Below, piece after piece: positions 3,489 through 36,143 of a DNA stretch of 64,000 bases. The DNA is from Chitinolyticbacter albus (GTDB taxonomy: Bacteria; Pseudomonadota; Gammaproteobacteria; Burkholderiales; Chitinibacteraceae). Numbering within the stretch: position 1 is the first letter of the stretch; each line of letters opens with the position of its first letter. Made by a program: the position numbers and the translations under genes. A model generated the notes under the pieces. It was not told the origin of the DNA, did no database searches, and saw only the letters and a program-made list of their open reading frames with translations. The stretch lies in NCBI RefSeq assembly GCF_024437655.1, contig NZ_JANBVF010000009.1, positions 1 through 64,000 of the forward strand. Reading direction: 5' to 3'.

Positions 3489-4682
3489 TCAGTGCACGGC
3501 AGCGACCGAGCGCAAACGCAGCGAGAACTCCTGCAGCGCGGCGATGCCGCTCGCTTCGGCGCGGGAACACCAGTCCTGCAGATGCTTCACCAGCTCGCTG
3601 CGGGTCAGCGAGGAGCGCTCCCACAGCCGGGTGAGTTCCTGACGCATCTGGTAGACCTGAGCCAGCGTCTTGCTCTCAGCGAGCAACTGATCCAGGCGCT
3701 GCTTGTCGTTCTCGGGCGTGTCCTTGGCATCCTGCTTCAGCCACACCTTCATCTGGCGGGCCGGATTGGCTTCCAGTTGCGGCAGGCGGGCGTTGGCGCG
3801 CAGCTTGTCGAGCTCCTCGGCGACGATGGCCTTGAAGCTGCGGGCGTACTGCGCCGCGATGGCGTAGCGGTTGGCGATCACCACGGCGAGTGCATGCTCG
3901 TCGATTTCCGGACGGACCTCAGCGCGCTTGAACTTGGGTGCCACGCGGCGCACCTTGGCCATGCGCAGGAGTTCCAGCGTGCGGATATAGCCCCAGCCGA
4001 TGTCGAACTCGAACCACTTGTACGAGAACTTGGCCGAGGTACCGAAGGTGTGGTGGTTGTTGTGCAGCTCTTCACCGCCGACGATGATGCCCCACGGCAC
4101 GAGGTTGGTCGACGCGTCCTCGCACTCGAAGTTGCGGTAACCCACATAGTGGCCCAGGCCATTGATCACGCCAGCGGCCCAGAACGGAATCCACGCCATC
4201 TGGATCGCCCAGATCCAGATGCCGTTCGGTCCGAACAGCATCAGGTTGATGATCATCATCGTGGTCGGGCCCTTGGCGCTGTGCTTGCTGTACAGATTGC
4301 GCTCCAGCCAGTCATCCGGCGTGCCATGGCCGAACTTTTCCATCGTTTCGGCATTCTTGGATTCGGCGCGATAGAGCTCGGCGCCTTCCCACATCACCTT
4401 GTTGATGCCCAGCACCTGCGGGCTATGCGGATCTTCCGCCGTCTCGCAACGCGCGTGGTGCTTGCGGTGGATCGCCGCCCACTGCTTGGTGACCATGCCC
4501 GTGGTCAGCCACAGCCAGAAACGGAAGAAGTGGCTGGGAACCGGGCCCAGATCGATGGCGCGGTGCGCCTGGTGACGGTGCAGGTAAATCGTGACCGATG
4601 CGATGGTGATATGGGTGAGCACCAGCGTCACCACGATATAGCCCCACCAGGGCAGGTCGATCAGGCCATTGAGCCAAGTCAT
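3489..4682 (-). CDS. Membrane acyl-CoA/fatty acid desaturase
   Basis: About 397 residues. It carries the three histidine boxes of membrane-bound diiron desaturases: HRHQAHR at about 35-41, HRKHHARCE some 35 residues later, and HNNHH after the second membrane pair. Hydrophobic segments flank the boxes (WWGYIVVTLVLTHITIASVTIYL; IWIWAIQMAWIPFWAAGVING). The enzyme would introduce a double bond into acyl chains, probably Delta-9, using ferredoxin or a similar donor. The C-terminal third (about 130 residues) is soluble, charged and helical, longer than minimal desaturases. The ATG at 4682 is chosen over an upstream start because the peptide begins MTWLNGLIDLPWWGY as in homologues; a GGAG is 11 bases upstream. 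Confidence 0.9.
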   Translation of the reverse strand: MTWLNGLIDLPWWGYIVVTLVLTHITIASVTIYLHRHQAHRAIDLGPVPSHFFRFWLWLTTGMVTKQWAAIHRKHHARCETAEDPHSPQVLGINKVMWEGAELYRAESKNAETMEKFGHGTPDDWLERNLYSKHSAKGPTTMMIINLMLFGPNGIWIWAIQMAWIPFWAAGVINGLGHYVGYRNFECEDASTNLVPWGIIVGGEELHNNHHTFGTSAKFSYKWFEFDIGWGYIRTLELLRMAKVRRVAPKFKRAEVRPEIDEHALAVVIANRYAIAAQYARSFKAIVAEELDKLRANARLPQLEANPARQMKVWLKQDAKDTPENDKQRLDQLLAESKTLAQVYQMRQELTRLWERSSLTRSELVKHLQDWCSRAEASGIAALQEFSLRLRSVAAVH

Positions 4683-4795
4683 GCTTTGTGTATCTCCGTA
4701 GGTACAATGCGCGCGCACCCTAACACGGGATTCACTCGCAGGGCGCTGATATTAATCAAATTTTCATCTGATTGCATGGGTGATTATACCGGCGG

Positions 4796-6145
4796 CTACC
4801 GCTCGTTGCCTGGAACCGGGTCGCCCGAGTCCAATCCCTGCAAGTTGCCATCGCCCGCTTGCCGGCTGGCCGGGCGAAAATGCACCACATCGACCCGATT
4901 GAAGGGGATGCTGATTCGGTGCGTCCGGAATGCTTGCCAGATGCGCTGGTTAATGTCTGACCGCAACGCCAGCGTTCCGTTCTCGGGATCTTTCACCCAG
5001 AAGCCCAGCGACATGTCGACGCCGCTGGCGGCAAAGTTCTCGAGAAAGGCGCGCGGCGCCGGATCGCGCTTGATGCGATCGAATCCGGCGGTGGCATCGA
5101 CCAGCAATTTCATCACCAGGTCCAGATCCGACTCGTAAGCGACGGACACCGGCATCTTGATCCAGACATCGCGCGCGTTGTACGACTGGTTGACCACGGT
5201 GGACGTGATCAGGGATTCGTTCGGTACCAGCGCCTCGGTGCCATCGGAGCCCTTCACCACCACGTAGCGCGACGTGAGGCCCGTGATCACGCCCTGGCGA
5301 TTGTCCACCTGGATCAGGTCACCGAGCTTCACCGAGCGATCGAGCAGGATGATGAAGCCCGATACATAGTTGGACGCGATCTTCTGCAGGCCAAAACCCA
5401 GGCCGACGCCCAAGGCGCCGCCGAATACCGACAGCACGGTGAGATCGATCCCGACCAGCGACAACGCCACGATCACCGCCAGCACCACCAGCAAAGACTG
5501 GGCGATCTTGACCGAGACCACGCGCAGGTTCATGTCGATCAGGCTCGCGGCCATCATGCGCGCTTCGAACAAGCGCCCCAGCCACATCGCCACCACCAGC
5601 GTACCGGCCACCGACAGCACGCCATTGATCACACTCAACAGTGAGATCGAGGTCTTGCCGATCGCAAAGTGCACCTCGTTCAGCGCTTCGGCAAGCTCGG
5701 GCAGGATGCCAACCACGTGCAACGCATACAGCAGCCAGATCAAGCCGGCGATGTAGCGCTCGGTGCGTTGCAGCCAGGCCGCATTGTTGAACGCATTGCG
5801 CAGCACGTAGACCAGCACGCGGATATTGACCATGGCCATCAGCAGCACGATGGCCACGTCGATCAATTTGTGCGGCGGCGCCCAGGCAAAGCGCAACAGG
5901 AAATTGAACAGCCACAGCAACAGCAGCGCGTTGAGCGGGAAGAAGATCCGCATCAATCCTTCGCCGCCGTGCTTCCAGCGGCTGTTCTCCAGCCCGAGCC
6001 TCGGCTTGAGATAATGGTTGCCCAAGGCGGCCAGCAACAGCGCCAGCAGCAGCAAGCCTGCCTGGACCAGCAGATGCGGATGCCCCAGCCCGAGCCGGTT
6101 GATATCCGCGATCAGTGAAACGACGAGATTCTGGCGTTCGGTCAT
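4796..6145 (-). CDS. MscS-family mechanosensitive ion channel
   Basis: About 449 residues with five or six N-terminal hydrophobic segments followed by the MscS pore and beta domain. The pore helix region reads LSVFGGALGVGLGFGLQKIASNYVSGFIILLDRS, with the small-residue pattern of TM3. The beta domain has KLGDLIQVDNRQGVITGLTSRYVVVKGSDGTEALVPNE. It would release solutes on hypo-osmotic shock. The extra N-terminal helices make it an MscM/YbdG-like rather than minimal MscS protein. The chosen ATG at 6145 lies 13 bases after the end of the upstream adenylyltransferase gene; a GTG four codons earlier is also possible. Confidence 0.9.
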   Translation of the reverse strand: MTERQNLVVSLIADINRLGLGHPHLLVQAGLLLLALLLAALGNHYLKPRLGLENSRWKHGGEGLMRIFFPLNALLLLWLFNFLLRFAWAPPHKLIDVAIVLLMAMVNIRVLVYVLRNAFNNAAWLQRTERYIAGLIWLLYALHVVGILPELAEALNEVHFAIGKTSISLLSVINGVLSVAGTLVVAMWLGRLFEARMMAASLIDMNLRVVSVKIAQSLLVVLAVIVALSLVGIDLTVLSVFGGALGVGLGFGLQKIASNYVSGFIILLDRSVKLGDLIQVDNRQGVITGLTSRYVVVKGSDGTEALVPNESLITSTVVNQSYNARDVWIKMPVSVAYESDLDLVMKLLVDATAGFDRIKRDPAPRAFLENFAASGVDMSLGFWVKDPENGTLALRSDINQRIWQAFRTHRISIPFNRVDVVHFRPASRQAGDGNLQGLDSGDPVPGNER

Positions 6146-6157
6146 GGTTGCTCGCAC

Positions 6158-6649
6158 CTAACCCAGCGCACGGATTTTCTGCAACATTTGCGTGGTCGAG
6201 GTCTGATGCAGGAACGGAATCGAATGCACCTGGCCGCCCCACTCCAGCACCTCGCGACTGCCGACGATGCGCTCGATCGACCAATCCCCCCCCTTGACCA
6301 GCACATCGGGCCGGCAGGCCAGGATCAGCTCGTGCGGCGTATCGGCGTCGAACCAGGTGACAAGATCGACACTGGCAAGCGAGGCCATCACTGCCGCGCG
6401 GTTGGCAAGCGGATTGATCGGCCTGTCATCGCCCTTGCCCTGGCGCTTTACCGACGCGTCGGTATTGAGCGCCACGATCAGCGACGCGCCCAGCGCGCGC
6501 GCCTGCGCAAGATAAGTGACATGGCCGCGATGCAGGATATCGAAGCAGCCGTTGGTGAACACCAGCGGGCGCGGCAAGGCCGCAACGCGCTCGGCCAGTT
6601 GCTCCGGCGGGCAGCAATACGCTTCGAAATCGGGTAAGGGGTAGTCCAT
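6158..6649 (-). CDS. rfaE2: D-glycero-beta-D-manno-heptose 1-phosphate adenylyltransferase
   Basis: 163 residues, the nucleotidyltransferase half of HldE found as a separate protein. It transfers AMP to heptose-1-phosphate in ADP-heptose synthesis for lipopolysaccharide inner core. The cytidylyltransferase signature TNGCFDILHRGHVTYL carries the HxGH motif, and VKGGDW and SIPFLHQTSTTQML near the end are typical of RfaE2. The ATG at 6649 is preferred over a TTG nine codons upstream. The mscS-type gene starts 13 bases downstream on the same strand. Confidence 0.92.
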   Translation of the reverse strand: MDYPLPDFEAYCCPPEQLAERVAALPRPLVFTNGCFDILHRGHVTYLAQARALGASLIVALNTDASVKRQGKGDDRPINPLANRAAVMASLASVDLVTWFDADTPHELILACRPDVLVKGGDWSIERIVGSREVLEWGGQVHSIPFLHQTSTTQMLQKIRALG

Positions 6650-6740
6650 GCGATCGGCTCGGCTAGTCTCGGGCAATATCGGGTTTTAGCATGGCAGGCT
6701 CATCACGCCAAACCCCCCGTCACCCGGTGTGGAAATGACT

Positions 6741-6772
6741 GCGGCGCTACGGCAATACAGCCGCAGCGCCGC
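6741..6772. terminator. Hairpin between convergent or tandem genes, possible terminator
   Basis: Inverted repeat with arms GCGGCGCT-x-CGG and CCG-x-AGCGCCGC and an 8-base loop, one mismatch in the stem. It lies just beyond the stop of the ferritin-like gene on the minus strand. There is no T-run, so it may only be a 3'-end stabilising stem. Confidence 0.35.
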
Positions 6773-6792
6773 AAGGGAACAAAGAAGGCGAA

Positions 6793-7620
6793 TCAGGCGA
6801 CGACCAGCTGCTTGCGATAACGGTTCAGGTCCGAGATCGATTCGAGCGCCACGCCGAACAGACTGGACAGGTTGCGCAGGATGCCGCCGACCACGCGTGC
6901 CTCCCACTCCTTGCCGAACTGGATCTGGCCGTCGAGCCAGTGCTCCAGCCATTCCGGATCCGGCAGGCGGCTTTGCACGGTGTCGTTCGGATACAGCTCC
7001 TTGTTCACGTGCAGATTGGTCGGATGCAGCGGCTTGCCCGAGCGGCCGCTCGACGCCATCAGAAAACCAATCTTGGCAAAGGCGGTGCGCGCCTCGTTGC
7101 CACAGCGCTCAATCGCGCGCTTCATGTATTTGAGGTAGGCGCCGCCATGGCGGGCCTCGTCGGTCGACAGCGTCTTGTAGATCGCCTTGATCACCGGCTC
7201 GGTGTGCCACTCGGAAGCACGGCGATACCACTGGGTCAGGCGCACTTCGCCGCAGAAATGCAGCATCAGCGTTTCCAGCGGCGGCGCCGGATCGAAGTCG
7301 AAGCGCACCGCGTGCAGCTCTTCCTCGGTGGGTACAAGTTCCGGGCGGAAGCGGCGCAGGTATTCCATCAGCACCAGCGAGTGCTTCTGCTCCTCGTAGA
7401 ACCAGATCGACATAAAGGCCGAGAAATCGGAATCGTCGCGGTTGTCACGCAGGAACATCTCGGTGGCGGGCAAGGCCGACCATTCGGTGATGGCGTTCAT
7501 CTTGATCGTCATCGCCTGTTCATCGGTGAGCAGGCTGGCATCGAACTCCCCCCAGGGAATATCGTTGGCCATATTCCAGCGTGCCTTTTCCAGGTCGGCG
7601 AACAATTGGGGGTACAACAT
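6793..7620 (-). CDS. Ferritin-like diiron protein, acyl-ACP-desaturase-like
   Basis: 275 residues. All six ligands of a four-helix-bundle diiron centre are visible in the order E, ExxH, E, ExxH: E46 (ITEW), E77-xx-H80 (YEEQKH), E125 (CGEVRL), E155-xx-H158 (DEARHG). This is the arrangement of soluble acyl-ACP desaturases and related ferritin-like oxidases. The substrate is not evident from sequence. The ATG at 7620 is set by an AAGGAG eight bases upstream. The gene stands alone, with a CinA-like gene divergent to it. I would call it a ferritin-like domain protein rather than assert desaturase activity. Confidence 0.75.
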   Translation of the reverse strand: MLYPQLFADLEKARWNMANDIPWGEFDASLLTDEQAMTIKMNAITEWSALPATEMFLRDNRDDSDFSAFMSIWFYEEQKHSLVLMEYLRRFRPELVPTEEELHAVRFDFDPAPPLETLMLHFCGEVRLTQWYRRASEWHTEPVIKAIYKTLSTDEARHGGAYLKYMKRAIERCGNEARTAFAKIGFLMASSGRSGKPLHPTNLHVNKELYPNDTVQSRLPDPEWLEHWLDGQIQFGKEWEARVVGGILRNLSSLFGVALESISDLNRYRKQLVVA

Positions 7621-7746
7621 CGATGCAGCTCCTTCGGCTTCGAGGTTTATCATAGAAGCCGGGACGTAGGCTTGAAAGTGCCCGTATTAGAACCGTTGTC
7701 ATATCGCGCGGCAAGCCAAAAACTTGCGTTTCATGGAGATGTCACA

Positions 7747-8481
7747 ATGGACTTCCATTTGTGTATCGTTGGCGACGAGATTCTGGAAGGTCGGCGTCAG
7801 GACAAGCACTATGCCGCTGTGCTGGAACGGCTCACTGCGCGGGGTCATCGGCTGGCCGCCGCTTACTATCTGCCGGACGACCGGGATGAACTCGTCGAGG
7901 TCTTTGCCCGCACGCTCGCCCGTGGCGCCCACGTGATTTCCTGCGGCGGCATCGGCGCCACGCCGGACGACCATACCCGACAGGCGCTGGCGCTCGCGGC
8001 CAACGTGGCGCTGGAACTGCACAGCGAGGCGGCCGCCTTCATCGTCGCGCGCAGCGGCGATGCCGCGTACCCGCACCGCATCCGCATGGCCGAATTTCCG
8101 CTCGGCGCCCAACTGATCCCCAACCCGGTGAACCAGGTGGCCGGCTGCAGTTATCGCCATCACCACCTGCTGCCAGGCTTTCCCGATATGGCCTGGCCCA
8201 TGCTGGAATGGGTGCTCGATACCCACTACCAGGTTGGCACCACTGAACAACGGTACAGCCTCTTGGTGCCCGATGCCCGCGAGGGCGACCTGATCGCCGA
8301 GATGGAACAACTGGTCGAAGCGCATCCTGGCCTGCGCTTTTCCTGCCTGCCCTCGTTCGGCAATGCACGCCATCCCGGACCGCACCTGGAATTCACGCTG
8401 GCCGGCGCCGATTCCGCCACCGCAGCCGCCTGGCTGAACGATGCGCTGCGCACCCGCGGCTACCACGTGGAGCAACCGTGA
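7747..8481 (+). CDS. CinA/MoaB-like molybdopterin-binding-domain protein
   Basis: 244 residues. The N-terminal part reads as a MoCF-biosynthesis fold: IVGDEILEGRRQDKH, then ARGAHVISCGGIGATPDDHTRQALA and LLPGFPDMAWPML, matching the CinA N-terminal domain motifs (GDELL-G, T-GGLGPT-DD-T, LPGVP-M). The C-terminal 70 residues are a less conserved alpha/beta tail; the nicotinamide-nucleotide amidase domain of full CinA is missing. The ATG at 7747 has GGAG eight bases upstream. It may handle nucleotide or pyrazine derivatives, but the reaction is not known for these stand-alone proteins. Confidence 0.8.
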   Translation: MDFHLCIVGDEILEGRRQDKHYAAVLERLTARGHRLAAAYYLPDDRDELVEVFARTLARGAHVISCGGIGATPDDHTRQALALAANVALELHSEAAAFIVARSGDAAYPHRIRMAEFPLGAQLIPNPVNQVAGCSYRHHHLLPGFPDMAWPMLEWVLDTHYQVGTTEQRYSLLVPDAREGDLIAEMEQLVEAHPGLRFSCLPSFGNARHPGPHLEFTLAGADSATAAAWLNDALRTRGYHVEQP

Positions 8482-19133: not shown

Positions 19134-20060
19134 TCAGGCCGCAACCGACGCGAGGTTCAGCCCCCTGTCCCACGGCGGTGCATCGCCCCAGGCCTCGACC
19201 AGGAAATCGATCATGCTGCGCACCTTGGCGGTGACATGGCGGCGGCTGGGATAGACCGCCCAGGCGTAGAGCTCGGGCTGCCCATGCTCGGCGAGCAGCG
19301 GTATCACTTCGCCACTACGCAGCGCATCGGCGATCAGAAAGGTCGGTTGGCGCACGATACCTTCGCCCGCGATCGCCGCCGCGCACAGCATGTCGCCGTT
19401 GTTGGCCCTGAAGTTGCCTTTCACCTTCACCTTTTCGCTGCCATCGATGCCGAAGGTCCAGTCGTCGCCCGTGCTGGCGTAGGTGTAGGCGAGGCAATTG
19501 TGCGTGACGAGATCCTGCGGCGTGGAGGGCATACCGTGCCGCGCGAGGTAATCGGGCGAGGCGCAGATCACCAGCCGGATCGGGCACAACCGGCGAGCGA
19601 TCAGGTTGCCCGGCAATTGCGGCGAGATGCGCAGTGCCAGATCGAAGCCCTCGTCAACGAGATCGACCGCGCGGTCGGCCAGTTCCAGATCCAGCGCCAC
19701 GTCCGGGTAGCGCTGGCGGTATTCGGCCAGCAAAGGCGATAGGTGGCGGATGCCCAGCGACAGCGGCGCGGAGATGCGCAGCGTGCCGCGCGGCCGCTGC
19801 GTGGCGCTGGACAATGCCGCCTCGGCCTCTTCGATATCGCCAAGGATCTGCTGACAGCGCTCGTAGTAGGCGAAGCCCGATTCGGTGGGGCTGAGCTTGC
19901 GCGTGGTGCGGTTCAAAAGCCGCGTACCCAAGTGGTTTTCCAGATCGGCCACGAGGCGCGACGCCGCCGTGGTTGAGATCTGCAAACGCTCGGCCGCACG
20001 CACGAAGCTGCCCGCTTCCATCACCTTGGCAAACACCTGCATCGCCACCAGTCTGTCCAT
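19134..20060 (-). CDS. LysR-family transcriptional regulator
   Basis: 308 residues, standard LTTR length. The N-terminal winged helix reads FAKVMEAGSFVRAAERLQISTTAASRLVADLENHLGTRLLNRTTRKLSPTESG (about 10-62), followed by a linker and a periplasmic-binding-like effector domain beginning GTLRISAPLSLG. It is of the DsdC/YafC-AaeR type (helix 1 MDRLVAMQVFAKV). The effector is unknown. Usually such a regulator faces its target gene, but the divergent neighbour here is alaS 430 bases away, so the target may lie elsewhere or have been lost. Confidence 0.93.
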   Translation of the reverse strand: MDRLVAMQVFAKVMEAGSFVRAAERLQISTTAASRLVADLENHLGTRLLNRTTRKLSPTESGFAYYERCQQILGDIEEAEAALSSATQRPRGTLRISAPLSLGIRHLSPLLAEYRQRYPDVALDLELADRAVDLVDEGFDLALRISPQLPGNLIARRLCPIRLVICASPDYLARHGMPSTPQDLVTHNCLAYTYASTGDDWTFGIDGSEKVKVKGNFRANNGDMLCAAAIAGEGIVRQPTFLIADALRSGEVIPLLAEHGQPELYAWAVYPSRRHVTAKVRSMIDFLVEAWGDAPPWDRGLNLASVAA

Positions 20061-28904: not shown

Positions 28905-29905
28905 GCACGCCGCAAGCGAACGCCACCTTCTACGATGGCGCCACCTCCGGGGCATGGCCAGTCACGTTGACGCGTGAGGGCCAGCAGCTGCAGGTGAACG
29001 GCCTCGCCGAGGCACGCAGCTATGCCTTGGCCGAGGTGAAGCTGGAGCCGCGGCTCGGGTCGCAGCCACGCCGGATGGCGCTGCCGGGCGGCGCGATCTG
29101 CGAAAGCCACGACCACGACGGCATCGCCGCAGTGTTCGGCCAAGGCGACGGCTTGCTGCACCACCTGGAAAGTCGATGGCGCTGGGTGGGCTACGCGGCG
29201 CTGCTGCTTGCCGGCTTCGGCGTGGCATTCTACCTGTGGGGCCTGCCCCTCTTGGCCAGCAGCGCCACGCTGATGACTCCGCCCGTCGTCGAGCGCGTGA
29301 TCGGCGACAAGGCGTTCGAGCATCTGGCCACGCTGGATCTCGATCTGAAACCGACTGCGCTGCCGGCCAAGCGCCAGGCAGCCCTACGCCAGCGCTTCGC
29401 CCAGCTGGTCCCTTCCGATAGTCGCTACCAGTACCGGCTGCACTTTCGCGCGGCACCAACGATCGGCGCCAACGCCTTCGCCCTGCCCGGCGGCGTGGTC
29501 GTGCTGACCGATGAGCTCGCCGCCATCGTCAGCGACGACGAGGTGATTGCCGTGCTGGCGCACGAAATCGGCCACGTGGAGCTGCGTCACGGCCTGCGCA
29601 TGATCTACCAGAGTACCGGCATGGGCGTGGCCGTTTCCGCCGTGCTGGGTGACGCCCCCAGCGCCGCAGCGCAGGTTGCAAGCTTCGGCGCGCTGGTGCT
29701 GCAACTGGGCTATTCGCGCGAGCTGGAGAGCGAGGCCGATCGCTACGCCCAGGAGCGCCTGACCGCACTGGGCCAAGACCGCCGTAAGCTCGGCAGCGCG
29801 CTTGCCAAGCTGATGAAGGCGCACAAGGAGAGCGAGTTGAAAGTGCCGGCCCTGCTGTCGTCGCATCCGGATACGGCAGAGCGGATCAAGACCTTGTCCC
29901 GATAA
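28901..29905 (+). CDS. M48-family membrane metalloprotease
   Basis: 334 residues from a GTG start overlapping the DUF898 stop. An N-terminal cytoplasmic domain of about 90 residues is followed by a membrane segment (WVGYAALLLAGFGVAFYLWGLPLL, about 90-115), then a peptidase domain with zinc site HEIGH (H221, E222, H225) and the third ligand in RELESEADRYA. FRAAPTIGANAFALPGGVVVLTDEL is the usual M48 lead-in. The catalytic domain would face the periplasm if the N-terminus is inside. Probably acts with the DUF898 protein in membrane or envelope quality control; that is inference. Confidence 0.9.
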   Translation: MSTPQANATFYDGATSGAWPVTLTREGQQLQVNGLAEARSYALAEVKLEPRLGSQPRRMALPGGAICESHDHDGIAAVFGQGDGLLHHLESRWRWVGYAALLLAGFGVAFYLWGLPLLASSATLMTPPVVERVIGDKAFEHLATLDLDLKPTALPAKRQAALRQRFAQLVPSDSRYQYRLHFRAAPTIGANAFALPGGVVVLTDELAAIVSDDEVIAVLAHEIGHVELRHGLRMIYQSTGMGVAVSAVLGDAPSAAAQVASFGALVLQLGYSRELESEADRYAQERLTALGQDRRKLGSALAKLMKAHKESELKVPALLSSHPDTAERIKTLSR

Positions 29906-29949
29906 GGCATAAGCCGCCTCCGGAAGGCGGGTAGCCTGGAGCGGGCAAC

Positions 29950-29994
29950 CGCCAAGACTCGCCCCGTTGATTTTCAACGGGGCGAGTCTTGGCG
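29950..29994. repeat. 21-bp perfect inverted repeat
   Basis: Arms CGCCAAGACTCGCCCCGTTGA and its exact complement are separated by TTT, giving a 21-bp perfect stem. It lies 44 bases after the M48 gene. There is no T-run on either side, so it is not a canonical terminator, although it could act as a bidirectional one. It also marks the border between core genes and the accessory region. Confidence 0.75.
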
Positions 29995-30064
29995 TCGGCG
30001 GGAGCAGCACCCCGAGCCGAACCCCAGGAAGTCAGCGCCGCTGGTTGGGCGATGCGGCAAGAGG

Positions 30065-30196
30065 TCAACGCTCGATGCCCTCGCCGTCAGACTGCTGGAT
30101 GTTGAGCAGCAGCACGGCGTAGACGTCCACATCGAGGTGCTGCCATGCGGCGTGCATCGCTCGACCCAGGTCGTCGGCTTGGCGGCCTGGTTTAAG
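30065..30196 (-). pseudogene. Possible 3' fragment of an unidentified gene
   Basis: A minus-strand frame ending in TGA at 30065 reads ADDLGRAMHAAWQHLDVDVYAVLLLNIQQSDGEGIER with G/C-rich third positions, as in real genes here. It has no good start, and upstream the frame degenerates into Arg/Pro-rich peptide. It lies directly downstream of the serine hydrolase gene. It could be a truncated relic; I do not recognise the parent family. Confidence 0.3.
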
Positions 30197-30263
30197 GCGG
30201 CTTGCAGCGGGGCGCCGAGCTGGAGGCCGTCCTCGACAGGCTGCAGTGGCATGGCGCGTGGGT

Positions 30264-31403
30264 TCAGTCCAGGAGTCGCGTCAGGGCGTCGGCCAGGCGC
30301 TCTTCCGCATGCGCGGCGTAGCCGTTCGCCAGAACCACCGCGGCACGGTCGCGCTCCGGCGCGATGGCCATCATGGCATAGAAGCTGTATTCGTCGCTGC
30401 CTGCGCTGAAGGCGATCGGGCGCGACTTGAAGTCGGCCGTCTGCATCCAGCCGGGTGATTGCAGGTCGCCGACCACCTCGTGCATCTGCCGGGCCGTTGC
30501 TGGGCTGATGAGCAGGCCCTCGGTGCCGCGCAAGGCCCGCAGGTGCAGTTGCAGGAAGGCGGCAACCTCCGTCAGCCGCATGCTCAGGCCGCCTGCCGGA
30601 TTCACGACCGGCGGGAACGCGATCAACGGTGTGTCGGGATCGATAGCCACCCACTGGCCCGAGCCGTCCAGCAGGTGCGGCCAGGGCTGAGCGCGATCGG
30701 AGCGCGCAGCGGGCGACACGAACTGGGGCGAGATGCCCAGCGGCCGGAACAGCCGCGCCTGCATCAGTTCCTCGTAGTCCTGCTGGCCGACCTCTTCGAG
30801 GACTGCGCCCATCGCCATGTAGCCGCCGTTCGAGTAGACGAAGGTCCCGGGCGGCGTGGCGGGCGGCTGGGCTACCGCCCAACGCAGGAACTGCATGCGC
30901 TGCTCGCGCGGGGTCCCACTCATCGGCGGGAGCGCAAGAAACTCGTCCAGCGACACGAGGGCATAGAGGCCGCTGCGATGCGTTAGCAGGTCGCGCACGG
31001 TGACTTGGGCGTACTCCGGCAGGCCGATTGCAGCCAGCTCGGGAATCGCCTCGTACAGGCGCATGTCCCAACGCAGCCGTCCGGCCTGGACCTCGACGCC
31101 TGCGAGGGTGGCGGTAAAGGCCTTCGTCATCGAGCCGATCGAGAAGCGGTCGAATGCCGACACCGCGTTCGCGCCGGTGCCCCCGACGCGGCGAAGGCCG
31201 GCGGCGCCAAATCGCATTGCGTGCGAGTCGGCCGCCAGGACGGCAACGCCAGGCATTCCATTGGAAGCGATCGTCTCGCGCGCGACCGTATTGGCGTCAG
31301 CCAGCTCGGAGGTAGAGTCCCCGCCGCCGCAAGCCACCAGCATGGCGGCGGCAACCCAGGTGGCGATGAATCGGGAATAGAGGGGCAGGCGTCGTTTGTA
31401 CAT
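30264..31403 (-). CDS. Serine hydrolase lipoprotein, beta-lactamase/class C fold
   Basis: 379 residues. A lipoprotein signal with lipobox LVAC (C25) precedes a class C beta-lactamase/DD-peptidase-like domain: SMTK (S91, K94), YSN (Y190, N192), VRDLLTHRSGL and a C-terminal strand. The domain (Pfam Beta-lactamase) includes esterases, D-aminopeptidases and penicillin-binding-like enzymes; which one this is cannot be said. The start at 31403 has AAGGA upstream. It lies 92 bases downstream of the aspartyl protease gene on the same strand, so they may form a unit. Confidence 0.88.
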   Translation of the reverse strand: MYKRRLPLYSRFIATWVAAAMLVACGGGDSTSELADANTVARETIASNGMPGVAVLAADSHAMRFGAAGLRRVGGTGANAVSAFDRFSIGSMTKAFTATLAGVEVQAGRLRWDMRLYEAIPELAAIGLPEYAQVTVRDLLTHRSGLYALVSLDEFLALPPMSGTPREQRMQFLRWAVAQPPATPPGTFVYSNGGYMAMGAVLEEVGQQDYEELMQARLFRPLGISPQFVSPAARSDRAQPWPHLLDGSGQWVAIDPDTPLIAFPPVVNPAGGLSMRLTEVAAFLQLHLRALRGTEGLLISPATARQMHEVVGDLQSPGWMQTADFKSRPIAFSAGSDEYSFYAMMAIAPERDRAAVVLANGYAAHAEERLADALTRLLD

Positions 31404-31495
31404 GGCAGTCCTTCGGGTGTATTGCACATAGGTTTAGGGGTTTAGAGTCCTGACCGGGTGGCCTGGCCCGCTTTTGCCGCGCTGCACGCGGCCGA

Positions 31496-32692
31496 TCAGA
31501 TCAGTTCGCGCAGGCGCAGCGTGACCTCGCGCTCGGCGGCGGCGCCGTCGCGCAGGCGCAGCTGCGGCGACCCGCCCGGTGTCGCCAGAGCCCGCCGCAA
31601 CATGCGGGCATCGCCGGCCAGCGGCAGGCCGTCGAGCGCAAGCAATTCGTCGTCGAGTTGCACGCCCGCGTCGGCGGCCGGGCTGCCAGGCACCACGTCG
31701 GCAACGACAAAGCGACCGTCGCGCAGCGGCGCTGCCAGCCCGGCGCACGGCGCAACGAACGGCTGCGACCGCGCGGCGCCGGGCTCGAGGTGCAGGCGCC
31801 GGCCCGCGCTGTCCAGCGTGACGGCGAAGCGGTGCCACAGCTCGCCGCCGAGGTTGCCCATCCACCCGTCGCTGCCGAACAGCCCGTCGTTCTCCAGCGA
31901 CAGCTCCACGACCACGCCGCGGAAGAGCTGGTCGCCGAGGCCGAGTTCGCCCACACGCACGATGTCGCCGCGTGTCACCCCGTTTGTGCCGATACCGGTC
32001 ACCATGCGCACCGCGGGCTGCAGGCGCCGGCGCAGGTCCAGGCGTTCGACCGACGGCGTGAACACCGTGACCGCATTGAAGGCCCCGGTGTCGATCGAGA
32101 ACCAGCCGATTTCGCCGGCGACGCGGGCTTGCACCAGCAGCTTGCCGCTGGGGCTGCGCTGCAGCGGCAGTATCGTCGCGCCGGGCGGCGGCGCCGGCAG
32201 GCCGGCGGCGGACGCGGTCAGCCGCAGGCGGCCAGCGGCGTAGTCCAGCCGGGGCACGAAGCGCTCGAAGAATCCCATACCGAGCACGCCGTCGTACGTG
32301 AACTCCTCTGGCATCGGGATGACGTAGGCGACGCTATCGCGCACGACGGCGTCGCCGACCGCCAGCCTGTCGAGCTGCACCCAGTGCCGGGGCACGCTCG
32401 GGCCGCCGGCTCCCGAGCCGGGTACCGTGCCCTCGGACAGCTTCAGGCCGAGCCGCGCCGCGGTCCTTGCGCTGACCACATCGCGGTCGGCGCCGCTGTC
32501 GAGCAGGAAGTGTAGCGCCTGTCCGTTGACGCTGACCTCGACCGACGCATACACGCCGTCGAGAGCCATCGGCAGCTCGACCACTTCGACCGGCGCATCG
32601 CCGCTCCCCCCGCTCCCGCCACCTCCACAGCCCGCCAGGCTGGCCGCGAGCGGCGCCACGAGCGACGCCTGCAGGAACCTCCTCCGATCCAT
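31496..32692 (-). CDS. Retropepsin-like aspartyl protease with C-terminal PDZ domain, exported
   Basis: 398 residues. The N-terminus MDRRRFLQASLVAPLAASLAGC has a twin-arginine motif (RRRFLQ) and a lipobox ending at C22, followed by a Gly/Ser linker. Two aspartyl-protease half-sites are visible: LDSGAD (D65) and SIDTGAFN (D201), each followed by hydrophobic strands, so the chain could form an active site within one molecule. The last 80 residues read as a PDZ domain (FVVADVVPGSPAADAGVQLDDELLALDG). AGGAGG lies just upstream of the ATG. Probably a membrane-anchored periplasmic protease. Confidence 0.85.
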   Translation of the reverse strand: MDRRRFLQASLVAPLAASLAGCGGGGSGGSGDAPVEVVELPMALDGVYASVEVSVNGQALHFLLDSGADRDVVSARTAARLGLKLSEGTVPGSGAGGPSVPRHWVQLDRLAVGDAVVRDSVAYVIPMPEEFTYDGVLGMGFFERFVPRLDYAAGRLRLTASAAGLPAPPPGATILPLQRSPSGKLLVQARVAGEIGWFSIDTGAFNAVTVFTPSVERLDLRRRLQPAVRMVTGIGTNGVTRGDIVRVGELGLGDQLFRGVVVELSLENDGLFGSDGWMGNLGGELWHRFAVTLDSAGRRLHLEPGAARSQPFVAPCAGLAAPLRDGRFVVADVVPGSPAADAGVQLDDELLALDGLPLAGDARMLRRALATPGGSPQLRLRDGAAAEREVTLRLRELI

Positions 32693-32748
32693 ATTGCCTC
32701 CTATGGCGCAGACGAAATAACTGTATTGCATATTTTTTTGTTATCAAG

Positions 32749-32930
32749 CGTTCATTCTGGGCAGCGCAGGCTGTGTGGGCGCGCGCGAGGCGCTCGGCCG
32801 CCAAGCCGCACCACAGCGCGTCGTCGCTGGAGCGCCGCGCGATCTCGAGCAGCGTCAGGCGGATCAGGTTTCGCTGCACGAGGCTGCCGCCGAAGCGGTG
32901 CGTCCGCGGGCTATCAACGGCACACCTGCA
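32749..32930 (-). pseudogene. Remnant resembling the C-terminus of a TTC38-like TPR protein
   Basis: The minus strand reads HRFGGSLVQRNLIRLTLLEIARR then SSDDALWCGLAAERLARAHTA. It ends abutting the aspartyl protease start region. The 'GGS-x2-QR-(D/N)-...-TLL' pattern followed by a helix is how bacterial tetratricopeptide repeat protein 38 homologues end. No start or upstream TPR region is left. The frame runs on into the protease gene without a proper stop, so it is a decayed fragment. Confidence 0.35.
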
Positions 32931-33284
32931 CCAAGGAGATAGCCCGCCTTATCCATGGCGTCTGTTCAGGGCACGAAGACGACTTCTGGAAACTGCGTCG
33001 ATACTCCGTTCAGCAGCGCGTTACAGCTGGCTCCGCGCAGGTGACAATCGAAAAATGCCACGGCGTGGCACGTTGGATCGAGGCGGCGCGAATCGGGTCG
33101 ACCGTGCCAATGGTGTCGGCCGCATCCTCCGGTAGCAGGCCCAAGACTGATGCGACTTGCGCAAGGATCAGGACGAAGTCGCTATAGGTGGCGAGCAGTT
33201 CATTACATCTACACCTCTTGAAAAACCAGACTGTCTTCGCTTTATTGGGTACTCTCACTGTGAATCGCCTGACTTTCTGCCACC
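32931..33284. other. Gene-poor spacer of mixed composition
   Basis: About 350 bases with no reliable gene. A minus-strand frame (about 33010-33210) encodes NELLATYSDFVLILAQVASVLGLL and a short tail, which looks mildly protein-like and may be another relic. Composition shifts from G+C-rich to A+T-rich towards the attC-like site that follows. Confidence 0.3.
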
Positions 33285-33383
33285 GGGCTAACCTTTCAGT
33301 CAACTGGACAGCCTAAAGCTACGCTTTGGGTTCCCTTCGCTGCTGTGCGGCTCCGGCTGCCAGTTACTTCCAACGTTATGCCC
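33285..33383 (+). repeat. attC-like integron recombination site (copy A)
   Basis: A 99-bp imperfect palindrome with all attC parts. Outer boxes are GGGCTAAC (33285-33292) and GTTATGCCC (33375-33383). Inner boxes are AACTGGACAGCC (33302-33313) and GGCTGCCAGTT (33355-33365), which pair perfectly except for one extra A at 33308, the extrahelical base typical of attC. The apical part has a further AAAGC/GCTTT stem. The right end, GTTATGC, matches cassette ends of chromosomal integrons. Confidence 0.7.
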
Positions 33384-33622
33384 AATACGCCCATGACCCT
33401 GGCCGACCTTGATAACGCATTGATACAGAGCGTGATTGCGGCCATGTACGGCTGTTTGAGGTCTATTGCTCGGCCACATATAACAAGACCAACTGGCCAT
33501 CTGACAAATTGTCAATTCATGCATTGAAAACATCAATGTATTTTGATCAAGCCGCGAAACCGGGGACAAAGGAACATTTTGCCTCCCAATGGCGCACAAC
33601 ATGGCTTGCGGCATTGATTTGA
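33378..33622 (+). pseudogene. Frameshifted cassette open reading frame
   Basis: Just after attC copy A an ATG (33378, or 33393) opens the frame PMTLADLDNALIQSVIAAMYGC. It then loses sense, while the frame displaced by two bases continues as LFEVYCSATYNKTNWPSDKL then SIHALKTSMYFDQAAKPGTK and EHFASQWRTTWLAALI to a TGA at 33622. Together they would make one protein of about 80 residues with a single frameshift near 33448. I do not recognise it. Alternatively both pieces are chance open frames. Confidence 0.35.
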
Positions 33623-33817
33623 TAAAAACGGAAAGAGCGCAGTTATTTTGGAATGCAATTATGGCTAGACTAACTGGGCCTATATGCTCTTGACCCACAC
33701 AAAAGACATACACAAAACAACTGGGCAGGCTCTTACGATCCCGCAACAACTGCAACCGTTGATAGTTGCTTGGCTCTGAAAAAAATTACTCACTATGGCC
33801 ATAGAAGATGAATATTA
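33623..33817. other. A+T-rich non-coding part of cassette 1
   Basis: 195 bases without a convincing gene between the broken ORF and attC copy B; clearly more A+T-rich than the chromosome. Confidence 0.35.
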
Positions 33818-33915
33818 GGTATAGCCTTCCGATCAATGTGACAGCCCAAAGTTGCGCTTTGGATTCCCTCCGCCGCAAGCGGCTCCAGCTGCCCGGTTAC
33901 CTCCAACATTGGGCC
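33818..33915 (+). repeat. attC-like site (copy B), degenerate
   Basis: 98 bp that align with copy A along their whole length, almost without gaps, at roughly three quarters identity. Shared blocks include GACAGCC, GCGCTTTGG, GCGGCTCC, AGCTGCC/GGCTGCC and TCCAAC. The left outer box has drifted to GGTATAGC and the right reads ATTGGGCC instead of GTTRRRY. The apical stem CCAAAG/CTTTGG is perfect. Because the outer boxes are poor it may no longer recombine. Confidence 0.55.
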
Positions 33916-33929
33916 ATGAGGATCGCGTA

Positions 33930-34406
33930 GTGAAACAGATCTTGGTCATCCTGATAGTAGCGGTAACTTTTGGCTGCACGCCCACTCCTAAAGTAGAAGA
34001 GACGGTAGATAAAGAGAGAGCCAACCTCACCACGCTGGTCATGGAGTCCATGATTGAAATCCAGCGCAAGGATCGCGAACACGTTCACTTCAAGGCAGAG
34101 CAACTTTTTGTTTCAGAGCGAGCGACTTCTGGAAATCCAAGAGAATTTGATTTGGCGGTTGGCCAAGTGTTCTTTCACCCCGACCACCACTATCGAATCG
34201 TTTTTACCGTCCGTGAAATCGACGATTCAATTGTGGTGCTAGACTACGAATCAGTTTTCTCACACGAATCTTTCGGAAAGAATTTGATCACAAAGGACAG
34301 GGGCACAATTAATGTGCCCTACAAGCAACCGGTAGCGGCCCACCAAAGCGCTCCAGCGGACAGTTCACCAACTGCGCGGCCACCGGCGCTGATTTTCATT
34401 CGTTAG
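33930..34406 (+). CDS. Cassette-encoded small lipoprotein
   Basis: 158 residues from a GTG start with AGGA seven bases upstream. The N-terminus KQILVILIVAVTFGC is a short lipoprotein signal with Cys in the lipobox. Then follow a charged helix (TVDKERANLTTLVMESMIEI) and a likely beta-rich part (FDLAVGQVFFHPDHHYRIVFTVREIDDSIVVLDYESVF). It is A+T-rich. The stop codon TAG lies inside the right box GTTAGGC of the next attC site, as is common for integron cassette genes. No family recognised; location would be the inner face of an envelope membrane. Confidence 0.7.
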   Translation: MKQILVILIVAVTFGCTPTPKVEETVDKERANLTTLVMESMIEIQRKDREHVHFKAEQLFVSERATSGNPREFDLAVGQVFFHPDHHYRIVFTVREIDDSIVVLDYESVFSHESFGKNLITKDRGTINVPYKQPVAAHQSAPADSSPTARPPALIFIR

Positions 34407-34408
34407 GC
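34338..34408 (+). repeat. attC-like site (copy C), short 59-base-element type
   Basis: About 71 bp. The right box is an exact GTTAGGC (34402-34408). The left box GCCCACC (34338-34344) fits RYYYAAC at six of seven positions. Inner arms share AGCGC/GCGCT, and the apex is a perfect CAGTT-CACC-AACTG hairpin. This is the length of classical cassette 59-base elements, unlike the 99-bp copies A and B, so the cassettes have different origins. Confidence 0.6.
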
Positions 34409-34425
34409 CTCGTGGAGCACGCATC

Positions 34426-34827
34426 GTGAACCGAACACCCGCAGTCCTCTTATTTGGCATCTGTGCCACTCTCCACGCCGCAGAACCGGCTTTCAAGTCA
34501 TGGGACGGCAATTACCTTCCTATTTTTCAGCTTCCACGGGAGAAGCACGCTGAGTCCTTTGAGACGCTTCTGGCGAGTTCCATCCCCTCTCCTTCGACGG
34601 CCGAAGATTTGGCTACGCGCTACTGGTTTAGCAATCATGGTCTCCTCGCTGAGGAGGGGCTCCGCGTTTCTGGCTTGTTCCGTATCGGGCGCGACATCAA
34701 GGGATTTGCGGCGAAAGGAGAGTGGGTTTGGGAGGTTCGCGTTACGCATCTTGGTTTCAGTCTTGACGGGGTCATTTGGATCAACGCGCACTCAAAAAAG
34801 ATTCATGCTTTCGGCCCGAAATCGTAA
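34426..34827 (+). CDS. Cassette-encoded exported hypothetical protein
   Basis: 133 residues from a GTG start 18 bases after the attC copy C right box, with GTGGAG upstream. The signal peptide MNRTPAVLLFGICATLHAAEP has a clear AxA-type site. The mature part (FETLLASSIPSPSTAEDLATRYWF, GLLAEEGLRVSGLFRIGRDI, GEWVWEVRVTHLGFSLDGVIWIN) looks like a compact alpha+beta periplasmic protein ending GPKS. No family recognised. Position directly behind an attC and A+T-rich codon use support cassette origin. Confidence 0.7.
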   Translation: MNRTPAVLLFGICATLHAAEPAFKSWDGNYLPIFQLPREKHAESFETLLASSIPSPSTAEDLATRYWFSNHGLLAEEGLRVSGLFRIGRDIKGFAAKGEWVWEVRVTHLGFSLDGVIWINAHSKKIHAFGPKS

Positions 34828-34830
34828 GTC

Positions 34831-34837
34831 GGCTAAC
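34831..34837 (+). repeat. Possible left box of a fourth, truncated attC
   Basis: GGCTAAC lies three bases after the stop of the exported protein gene, where a cassette's attC should begin. No matching GTTAGCC is found in the next 150 bases, so the site seems truncated or rearranged. Confidence 0.3.
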
Positions 34838-35417
34838 TCTCCTTGCGTTGCAATGCCCATGCTGACCCAGCGCCCCTCTGTCCCCCACCACCCCGAGGCT
34901 CTGCCTGGGCTGCCTATCATTCGGCGGCCAGCGAACCCAGCTGCTGCGCATCGGTGCTGCTTGGTACGTTTAGGTCGCATTCCCGGACACTGGCGACCTG
35001 AATACGAAGGCGAGGCGCTCTGTTAGTGAAACAGCCGTGCAGCAATGAACACGCAAGCGCAGCGTCTGTCAAAATGCCCACCTCATCCTTCGAACGGATG
35101 TCTTGAAGCAGGCTTCCCCACTGGAAGGCGCTGCCCAAGTGAAACGCTAGAGTCTGCAATGCGATGCTCAGCCGACACTGACCAACTTGTTCATGAACTT
35201 CTGCTTCGGCCGAGAACCGGCCGTTGGATTCTTGCTGCGGTTGACCAGAGCAGATCGAGGGCGGACATCCTACGTTTGACTTATGTAGAAATCGTCGTTT
35301 GCCTTAGCGCTCTTGTCCGGTATTGACTCACGCAAGTTCGCTGAGAAGGATCAGATGTGATCGATCGGCACATGCTACGCTGAGCGACTCTTTTGAAGCA
35401 TAGTTGTGGAGCTCCTC
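34838..35417. other. Gene-poor tail of the cassette region
   Basis: 580 bases with no well-supported gene. A frame at 35045-35326 (93 codons, MNTQAQRLSKCPPHP...) is open but lacks a ribosome-binding site and reads unlike a protein. A GTTAGTG at about 35022 resembles an attC right box without a visible partner. Confidence 0.35.
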
Positions 35418-35606
35418 ATGTTTACCTGTCTTAATCAGTCTTGCGATGCACGCTGGAAACAGGAAGAAGTAGTAATCAAGAACGAAGGACAGGGTGAGCT
35501 GTTTCGCTGCCCGCTGTGTGGTGCTAGAAACCGGGTGGTCCGCAGTGTAAAGCCCAATGGCCGCGTCACTTACAAGCAGATATATCCCAGTCAGCGAACT
35601 GAATAA
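35418..35606 (+). CDS. Small zinc-ribbon protein
   Basis: 62 residues with two metal-binding knuckles: C-x4-C at the start (FTCLNQSCDARW) and CPLC in the middle (FRCPLCGARNRVVRSV), followed by a basic tail (NGRVTYKQIYPSQRTE). This is a single zinc ribbon, perhaps nucleic-acid binding. The ATG has GGAG seven bases upstream. It is A+T-richer than the chromosome and sits between the cassette region and ssrA. I do not recognise a named family. Confidence 0.65.
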   Translation: MFTCLNQSCDARWKQEEVVIKNEGQGELFRCPLCGARNRVVRSVKPNGRVTYKQIYPSQRTE

Positions 35607-35728
35607 TGCATCGCCCCTGCTTGCGCAGGTTCTGATGGGTTGCCTCGACAGGTTGAATCCACAGTCAAATGGCCATATCACTTCAAGCGCCTTGCCTCCC
35701 AGTGTTGACGATCACCCCAAATAGTCCC

Positions 35729-35761
35729 AAAAAAAAGCCACCAAGCTTTCGCTAAGTGGCT
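35729..35761 (-). terminator. Rho-independent terminator of ssrA
   Basis: On the minus strand AGCCACTTAGC-GAAA-GCTTGGTGGCT forms a stem with a GNRA tetraloop followed by eight T, 19 bases beyond the tmRNA 3' CCA. Confidence 0.9.
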
Positions 35762-35779
35762 GATTTTTAACAGAAATAG

Positions 35780-36143
35780 TGGTGGAGCCGGCGGGAGTCG
35801 AACCCGCGTCCGGAAGCCCTCTACGAAGAGTTCTACATGCTTAGTGTGGTCTACTGGATTTAACCCTTAACACGCCGGCCCACAGGCTTGTTACGGGCGA
35901 GTCACCTTGGATTTAACCCCGGGCCAAGTAACCCGATCCGAGGCGATCCCATCTGAATGACTCTGCTGTCGTTTTTAGGCGACCTACCCGGTGGGCAAAG
36001 TAGCGCAGAGTCTGGCGCGATTAAGCAGCCAGAGCGTAAGTTTCGTCGTTTGCGACTAAATGAATTCAGCGTTTAACGGGGTGACTGAGATCCCGGCATG
36101 CCCTCACCCGCTTTGCAACCCCCGTCGAAACCATGGCGGCCCC
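35780..36143 (-). ncRNA. ssrA: Transfer-messenger RNA (tmRNA)
   Basis: 364 nt. The 5' end GGGGCCG pairs with CGGCTCC next to the 3' CCA, making the tRNA-like acceptor stem; TTCGACTCCCGC gives the T-arm. Near the 5' end ATGGTTTCGACGGGGG is the conserved D-loop-like segment. The tag reading frame (36053-36021, resume codon GCA) encodes ANDETYALAA and ends in TAA; this is the tag I know from Neisseria-type betaproteobacteria. With SmpB it frees stalled ribosomes. Its 3' end faces the accessory region, a common integration target. Confidence 0.97.

Follow-up and report, generated by a model that had tools for sequence, protein, structure and literature searches.

A small, largely decayed attC cluster without an adjacent integrase, very probably a CALIN, in Chitinolyticbacter albus

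Do the repeats found at positions 33285 to 34837 of a Chitinolyticbacter albus contig belong to an integron and, if so, how did they come to lie apart from any integrase gene? The window analysed here comprises positions 1 to 64,000 of contig C84, which is 154,697 bases long and belongs to a genome of 3.92 Mb in 84 contigs. A sequence-only reading of this DNA had described three attC-like sites (A, B and C) lying in the same orientation within 1.1 kb, with small plus-strand genes between them, and had interpreted the ensemble as a CALIN, that is, two or more nearby attC sites with no adjacent integrase. The alternative considered was that of a transposon or REP repeat family.

To score the sites, covariance models R1 and R2 stood in for IntegronFinder's own attC model. 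R1 was built from 18 attC sites of the same genome, none of them from the window, which was held out. Its rows were picked from BLAST and motif matches outside the window, poorer copies being omitted (for example, L029 17662-17761, L026 8853-8947, L026 6970-7045 and L030). RNAalifold analysis of the 18-sequence alignment yielded an L''/L' stem of 12 pairs, 9 of which showed at least one both-side change, and the R''/R' pairs were added to this stem before building the model. R1 was tested on 82 loci, of which 80 came from GTDB genomes and were seeded on an integrase, while two were integron regions of plasmids. All 151 matches obtained at E up to 1e-4, among them two sites from a class 1 integron, lay on the strand opposite to the integrase gene. 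This is the strand expected for attC sites when the array diverges from intI, and R1 thus behaves as an attC detector. R2 was built from 150 of the 151 matches and includes nothing from the C. albus genome. With filters off, the matches of R1 in the window ranking 1, 2, 3 and 5 all fell within 33284-35154 on one strand, and the best three of R2 fell within 1.13 kb, likewise on one strand. An isolated minus-strand match at 19750 scored 15.5 bits with R1 (E 0.063) and 16.5 bits with R2 (E 0.094). As a background for R2, the best score in 91.5 kb of ssrA regions from five relatives was 14.4 bits with filters off; under default filters, the ssrA regions of nine relatives (164.5 kb) gave no match at E up to 10. 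Two other search procedures were discarded: a finder combining attC motifs with folding gave too much noise (42 matches in 320 kb of Markov-shuffled sequence) and the pattern RYYYAACNNNTC occurred at chance level (4 found, 3.94 expected).

Site A (33285-33383, plus strand) is well formed. Its R'' box reads GGCTAAC (33286-33292) and its R' box GTTATGC (33375-33381). R1 placed it where it had been proposed to lie (33284-33383) with 87.0 bits and an E value of 8.2e-24; R2, made of foreign attC sites only, gave 59.4 bits (E 1.5e-12). The site is 92% identical over 91 bp to one attC of an integron on contig C11, and a DNA search of the genome with its sequence returned 11 matches, on C84, C11, C27, C14, C2 and C9. 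The bottom strand folds into an attC hairpin in which the R arms pair with one bulge and pairing of the L arms leaves two bases of L'', a T and a G, bulged out; we take these to be the classical extrahelical bases. The claim that the arms pair was thus borne out, except that two L bases are bulged rather than one. Folding had a z score of -2.18, with 7 of 200 shuffled sequences folding as well; the values for four other attC sites of the genome were -3.06, -3.07, -3.73 and -6.70. With complementary R''/R' and L''/L' arms, a bottom-strand fold and a GTT at the crossover point, site A is certainly a genuine attC of the family used by the C11 integron.

Site B (33817-33916, plus strand), separated from site A by 434 bp, does align with it as had been noted (77% identity over 90 bp). 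R1 recognised it with 48.2 bits (E 6.1e-12), R2 with 18.1 bits (E 0.036). Its R' box reads ATTGGGC and R'' is unrecognisable; both the GTT and the paired R arms are lost and the sequence folds no better than shuffles (z -0.15). Site B is a degenerate member of the same attC family, an assignment that is certain against the genome's own attC sites and marginal with the foreign model. Site C (34336-34410, plus strand) does contain the exact GTTAGGC at R' (34402-34408), and thus keeps the GTT, but its R'' box, GCCCACC (34338-34344), is mismatched, its fold is again no better than shuffles (z +0.11), and its only match in a DNA search of the genome was itself. The R1 score was non-significant (11.7 bits, E 0.87). 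The R2 score, marginal at 19.0 bits (E 0.022), exceeds both the 16.5 bits of the isolated match in the window and the 14.4 bits of the relatives. Site C is probably a decayed attC.

A probable fourth decayed attC, overlooked in the sequence-only reading, occupies positions 35074-35154 of the plus strand. Its R' box reads GCTAGAG (35146-35152); the GTT and the paired R arms are absent, folding equals that of shuffles (z -0.58), and the scores were 16.7 bits with R1 (E 0.027) and 13.4 bits with R2 (E 0.57), the latter within noise. This site gains weight from DNA shared with contig C14, which starts at the R' box. The shared stretch (35143-35214, plus strand; L027 8294-8224) has 78% identity across its 72 bp (E 6.7e-8); the alignment begins at the AAC preceding the R' box of an attC match at C14:34282-34387 (28.3 bits) and the homology continues into the DNA behind that attC. 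A looser alignment with C14, covering 35128-35336, scored 87, compared to 61 at most in 300 shuffles. Homology starting at an R' boundary may be read as the trace of a cassette exchange, with 35143-35214 as the presumptive start of a shared cassette. Finally, a GGCTAAC at 34831-34837 (plus strand), directly behind a stop codon and identical in letters to the R'' box of site A, could be an attC stump, a meaning that the sequence-only reading had likewise passed over; no second half was recognisable and neither R1 nor R2 called it. Site B, site C and the site at 35074 thus lack features of working attCs and were classed as decayed. Of the proposal of three sites in one orientation, the common plus strand and site A withstood scrutiny, while B turned out degenerate and C marginal.

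The genes of the cluster conform to the earlier description in part. ORF1 (33930-34406, plus strand, 158 aa from a chosen GTG start) follows site B and has a lipoprotein-like start; none of 1000 shuffles gave an ORF as long. Its 3' end coincides with site C, the TAG stop lying inside GTTAGGC. ORF2 (34426-34827, plus strand, 133 aa, matched in length by 2 of 1000 shuffles) follows site C, starts with a signal-peptide-like sequence and ends just before the GGCTAAC motif. By inspection, both begin like exported proteins, as had been stated. No gene is recognisable between A and B (33384-33816, plus strand), however, where the longest ORF has 44 aa and 496 of 1000 shuffles contain one as long. Neither ORF1 nor ORF2 scored above cut-off with any Pfam family, matched a plasmid or had a viral relative among viral contigs, and AlphaFold models computed without an alignment were unusable (mean pLDDT 39 and 47).

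Judging from the sequence, the cluster would extend from about 33285 to at least 35214 on the right, since the stretch shared with C14 ends there. The GC content of 500-base windows is 46-57% between 33250 and 35999 and 62-74% in the left flank (29000-33249). On the right, the chromosomal flank outside the cluster is formed by the tmRNA gene ssrA (35780-36143, minus strand; RF00023, 205.4 bits), the only feature found in an Rfam scan of the window. An island at the 3' end of the tmRNA gene was considered; a second copy of that end was absent from the window. The low-GC DNA that separates the cluster from ssrA contains a 66-aa plus-strand ORF (35406-35606) with zinc-ribbon-like cysteine pairs, for which Pfam scores were weak only and whose length is at chance level. 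The gene on the left (31496-32731, 411 aa) appears aspartyl-protease/PDZ-like by inspection and had no match at E <= 1e-20 among 42 other genomes of the family.

The absence of an integrase gene was confirmed. TIGR02249 found no match on contig C84 at E <= 0.001, and tblastn of the window with the two integrases of the genome gave a best E value of 0.56; an intact integrase was found on C11 instead. Similarity to seven attI regions of the genome revealed no attI in the window. Of the attI core patterns, none occurs near the cluster: one matched twice, each time with 3 mismatches, at positions 9763 and 57775, which are distant from the cluster and no more than chance would give, and the other two had no match in the window. 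The locus shows neither a detectable intI nor an attI heading the array, which together define a complete integron. With no integrase adjacent, and with sites A and B passing the held-out R1 model at E below 1e-11, the cluster is very probably a CALIN, small and mostly decayed, as had been proposed, and reaching to about 35214. Under R2, A is strong and C and B are marginal. Against the assignment, one may object that A is the sole C84 site found by R2 genome-wide, that B, C and the fourth site fold like shuffles, that the A-B interval has no gene and that no empty site was found in a relative.

The rest of the genome places these sites in context. Contig C11 carries a complete integron (L025, C11:24000-42000, positions 3764-8466) with an intact intI (TIGR02249 479 bits, no stop), an attI and small cassettes in an array, the contig having seven R1 matches. 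The integrase gene of C2 scores nearly as high (475 bits), likewise above the TIGR02249 cut-off, and contains one in-frame TAG (L026 11615-12589). Contigs C14 and C27 retain fragments of intI, and C36 a degenerate piece (L124, about 5719-6045). The C11 and C2 integrases are sisters (support 100/99) in two trees. The first covers the integrases from the 80 GTDB loci and both plasmid loci, limited to rows with 250 residues or more; the second covers 14 same-family integrases together with 12 outgroups selected from those loci (11 GTDB, one plasmid). The fragments from C14, C27 and C36 were excluded from both. Their sister position suggests either that the gene was duplicated within the lineage or that it was taken up repeatedly from one source.

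Genome-wide, R1 produced 43 matches at E up to 1, 18 of which are rows of the model itself. Of the 12 clusters that they form, five contain intI or remnants of it (C2, 6 matches; C11, 7; C14 left, 4; C27 left, 5; C36 left, 6) and seven do not (C1, C9, C27 right, C36 right and C84 with 2 each, C14 right with 4 and C35 with 1). With the same E limit, R2 produced 41 matches, distributed over these 12 places as well (C2 and C11, 7 each; C36 left, 6; C27 left, 5; C14 left and C14 right, 4 each; C1, 3; and one each in C84, where it is site A alone, C9, C27 right, C36 right and C35). In 11 of 11 multi-match clusters all matches share one orientation, and in 5 of 5 clusters with intI the attC sites oppose it. 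Comparison of the genome with itself and searches for attI showed that three of the seven clusters remaining have attI alone: C1, where attI without intI lies beside attC sites (L126 5476-5621); C14 right, which has a full and a partial copy (L028 4686-4864 and 3067-3131) together with cassettes and no adjacent intI; and C27 right, with an attI fragment and no intI (L029 16056-16126). These three are integrons that lost their integrase. Four clusters have neither; similarity to the genome's own attI regions detected none in the fetched loci of C9, C35 and C36 right. In all, attI occurs in at least seven places and, by alignment, as two sequence types, one in C11, C2, C36 and C1 and the other in C14 left, C27 left and C14 right. 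The single attC match of C35 (L127 6366-6429, 30.8 bits with R1 and 29.5 with R2), whose GC content of 31% is unusually low, is near a contig end, and its array may continue on another contig.

Similar sites are found in relatives. R1 matches at E up to 1e-3 were present in 12 of 21 genomes, including that of C. albus (39 matches, followed by 23 in G008 and 9 in G007); G001, from the same genus, had one. Under stricter filters, R2 matches at the same threshold occurred in 31 of 43 genomes of the family, again including the present one, with the counts 37 in G040, 34 in C. albus and 28 in G046. An integron integrase above cut-off was found in 16 of the 43; thus, genomes that have attC sites and lack a full intI are common in this family. 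No uninterrupted site was found in the one same-genus genome compared, G001, which conserves thyA and ssrA (84 and 88% identity). Directly behind ssrA, this genome has a tyrosine-integrase-like gene (L114 6950-8167), indicating another island at that spot.

Of the explanations for the cluster as a whole, we consider the best, and probably the correct one, to be a decaying CALIN laid down by the genome's own integron system and deprived of its platform. According to this scheme, integrase-catalysed cassette recombination by that system would have built the one-orientation run of cassettes; the cluster would then have lost its intI-attI platform and the sites would have decayed, leaving ORF1 and ORF2 as nearly frozen passenger genes. 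The involvement of the genome's own system is suggested by the intact C11 integrase with its attI and array, by the attC sites of the same family, by the low GC of the cluster and by the DNA shared with C14 that starts at R'. The specific step of platform loss, which we put forward with slightly less assurance and hold to be only somewhat favoured, has precedents in C1 and C14 right, where attI persists without intI, and in C27 right, where a fragment of it does; against it, no remnant of either element was detectable at this locus. Acting in trans, the integrase of C11 might even now add a cassette at site A, which alone keeps R arms, GTT and hairpin. Excision from A would hardly be possible because the partner site, B, has lost its GTT.

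The main rival holds that cassettes were inserted singly or as a short run, in trans, at a secondary, attG-like site, so that the cluster would never have had a platform. The enzyme would be that of C11 or one now dead, and the presence of an intact integrase and of same-family attC sites in the genome suits this idea. Such insertion at attG sites has been described in print, as other papers relate. The shared stretch begins at the R' boundary, as integrase recombination leaves it, and no trace of attI is seen here, in contrast to three of the other intI-less clusters, in which some is preserved. This last point loses force in that, with sites so heavily decayed, an attI might have disappeared in the same way. 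Moreover, no left border is apparent; A is the leftmost site and neither a recognisable cassette nor a single GTT joint precedes it; no empty site is known; and conserved CALIN places in Xanthomonas are read, in PMC12444791, as signs of ancestral integron activity. We regard insertion at an attG-like site as unlikely.

A chromosomal rearrangement could instead have moved a piece of a larger cassette array to this position, away from its platform, which would then still be present at another place in the genome. Synteny with G001 does break here: the window segment 24000-29904 matches, with a gap, at 2.78 Mb, and thyA-ssrA lies at 2.005 Mb, 0.78 Mb apart. The stretch common to C14 could likewise represent a split array. 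However, aside from the attC sites and the 72-bp stretch, the interval 32740-35780 shares nothing with the other fetched integron loci, and no insertion-sequence-like repeat was found in it. We judge such a relocation improbable. About equally doubtful appears a dispersed integron, in which one intact enzyme would serve attI and attC sites across the chromosome in trans, site A being a live outpost; if it were true, A would be a live part of a multi-locus cassette system and not debris. As for a REP-like or transposon-borne family of palindromic repeats, the occurrence of kin repeats at many places of the genome is what one would expect of it, but its likelihood is negligible and we reject it: these repeats adjoin integron integrases or form one-orientation attC clusters (11 of 11, and divergent from intI in 5 of 5), they do likewise at 82 other loci, with 151 of 151 matches opposite intI, their R boxes and L-stem covariation are attC-like, and a model made of foreign attC sites finds A (E 1.5e-12). 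The covariance-model search suggested along with the CALIN proposal thus yielded significant matches, for A and B with R1 and for A with R2, and the folding check gave a hairpin for A.

The cluster in itself is an ordinary element of a type already known; its setting is more remarkable, a genome with many platforms in graded decay. The series runs from a complete integron (C11) through a stop codon in intI (C2) and intI fragments (C14, C27, C36) to attI without intI (C1, C14 right, C27 right) and to clusters with neither (C84, C9, C36 right, C35). With this series and one intact integrase, the origin of CALINs by platform loss, attG insertion or rearrangement becomes testable in a single lineage.

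Comparison with known systems agrees with this placement. The IntegronFinder 2.0 paper (PMC9024848) defines a CALIN by at least two attC sites, gives an average of almost six, notes the proposal that CALINs are degraded integrons and states that 22% of IntI-bearing genomes encode more than one. The window cluster resembles these elements in having several one-orientation sites of an attC family, cassette-like ORFs and no adjacent intI, but it is smaller and more decayed than that average, with one well-formed site, one clearly degenerate and two probable. It shares with the C11 integron the attC family (92% identity for A) and small, low-GC cassettes, one of which in C11 is likewise lipoprotein-like by inspection; the C11 integron differs in its intact intI, its attI and its seven R1 matches, the first two of which have no detectable counterpart in the window cluster. 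In Xanthomonas, as reported in PMC12444791, about half of the genomes studied have CALINs apart from the main locus and integron activity has been lost progressively, and the C. albus genome resembles these in having an attC cluster apart from intI amid a loss of integron activity. A single platform, beside ilvD, is described there; the C. albus genome, in contrast, has attI in at least seven places and of two types.
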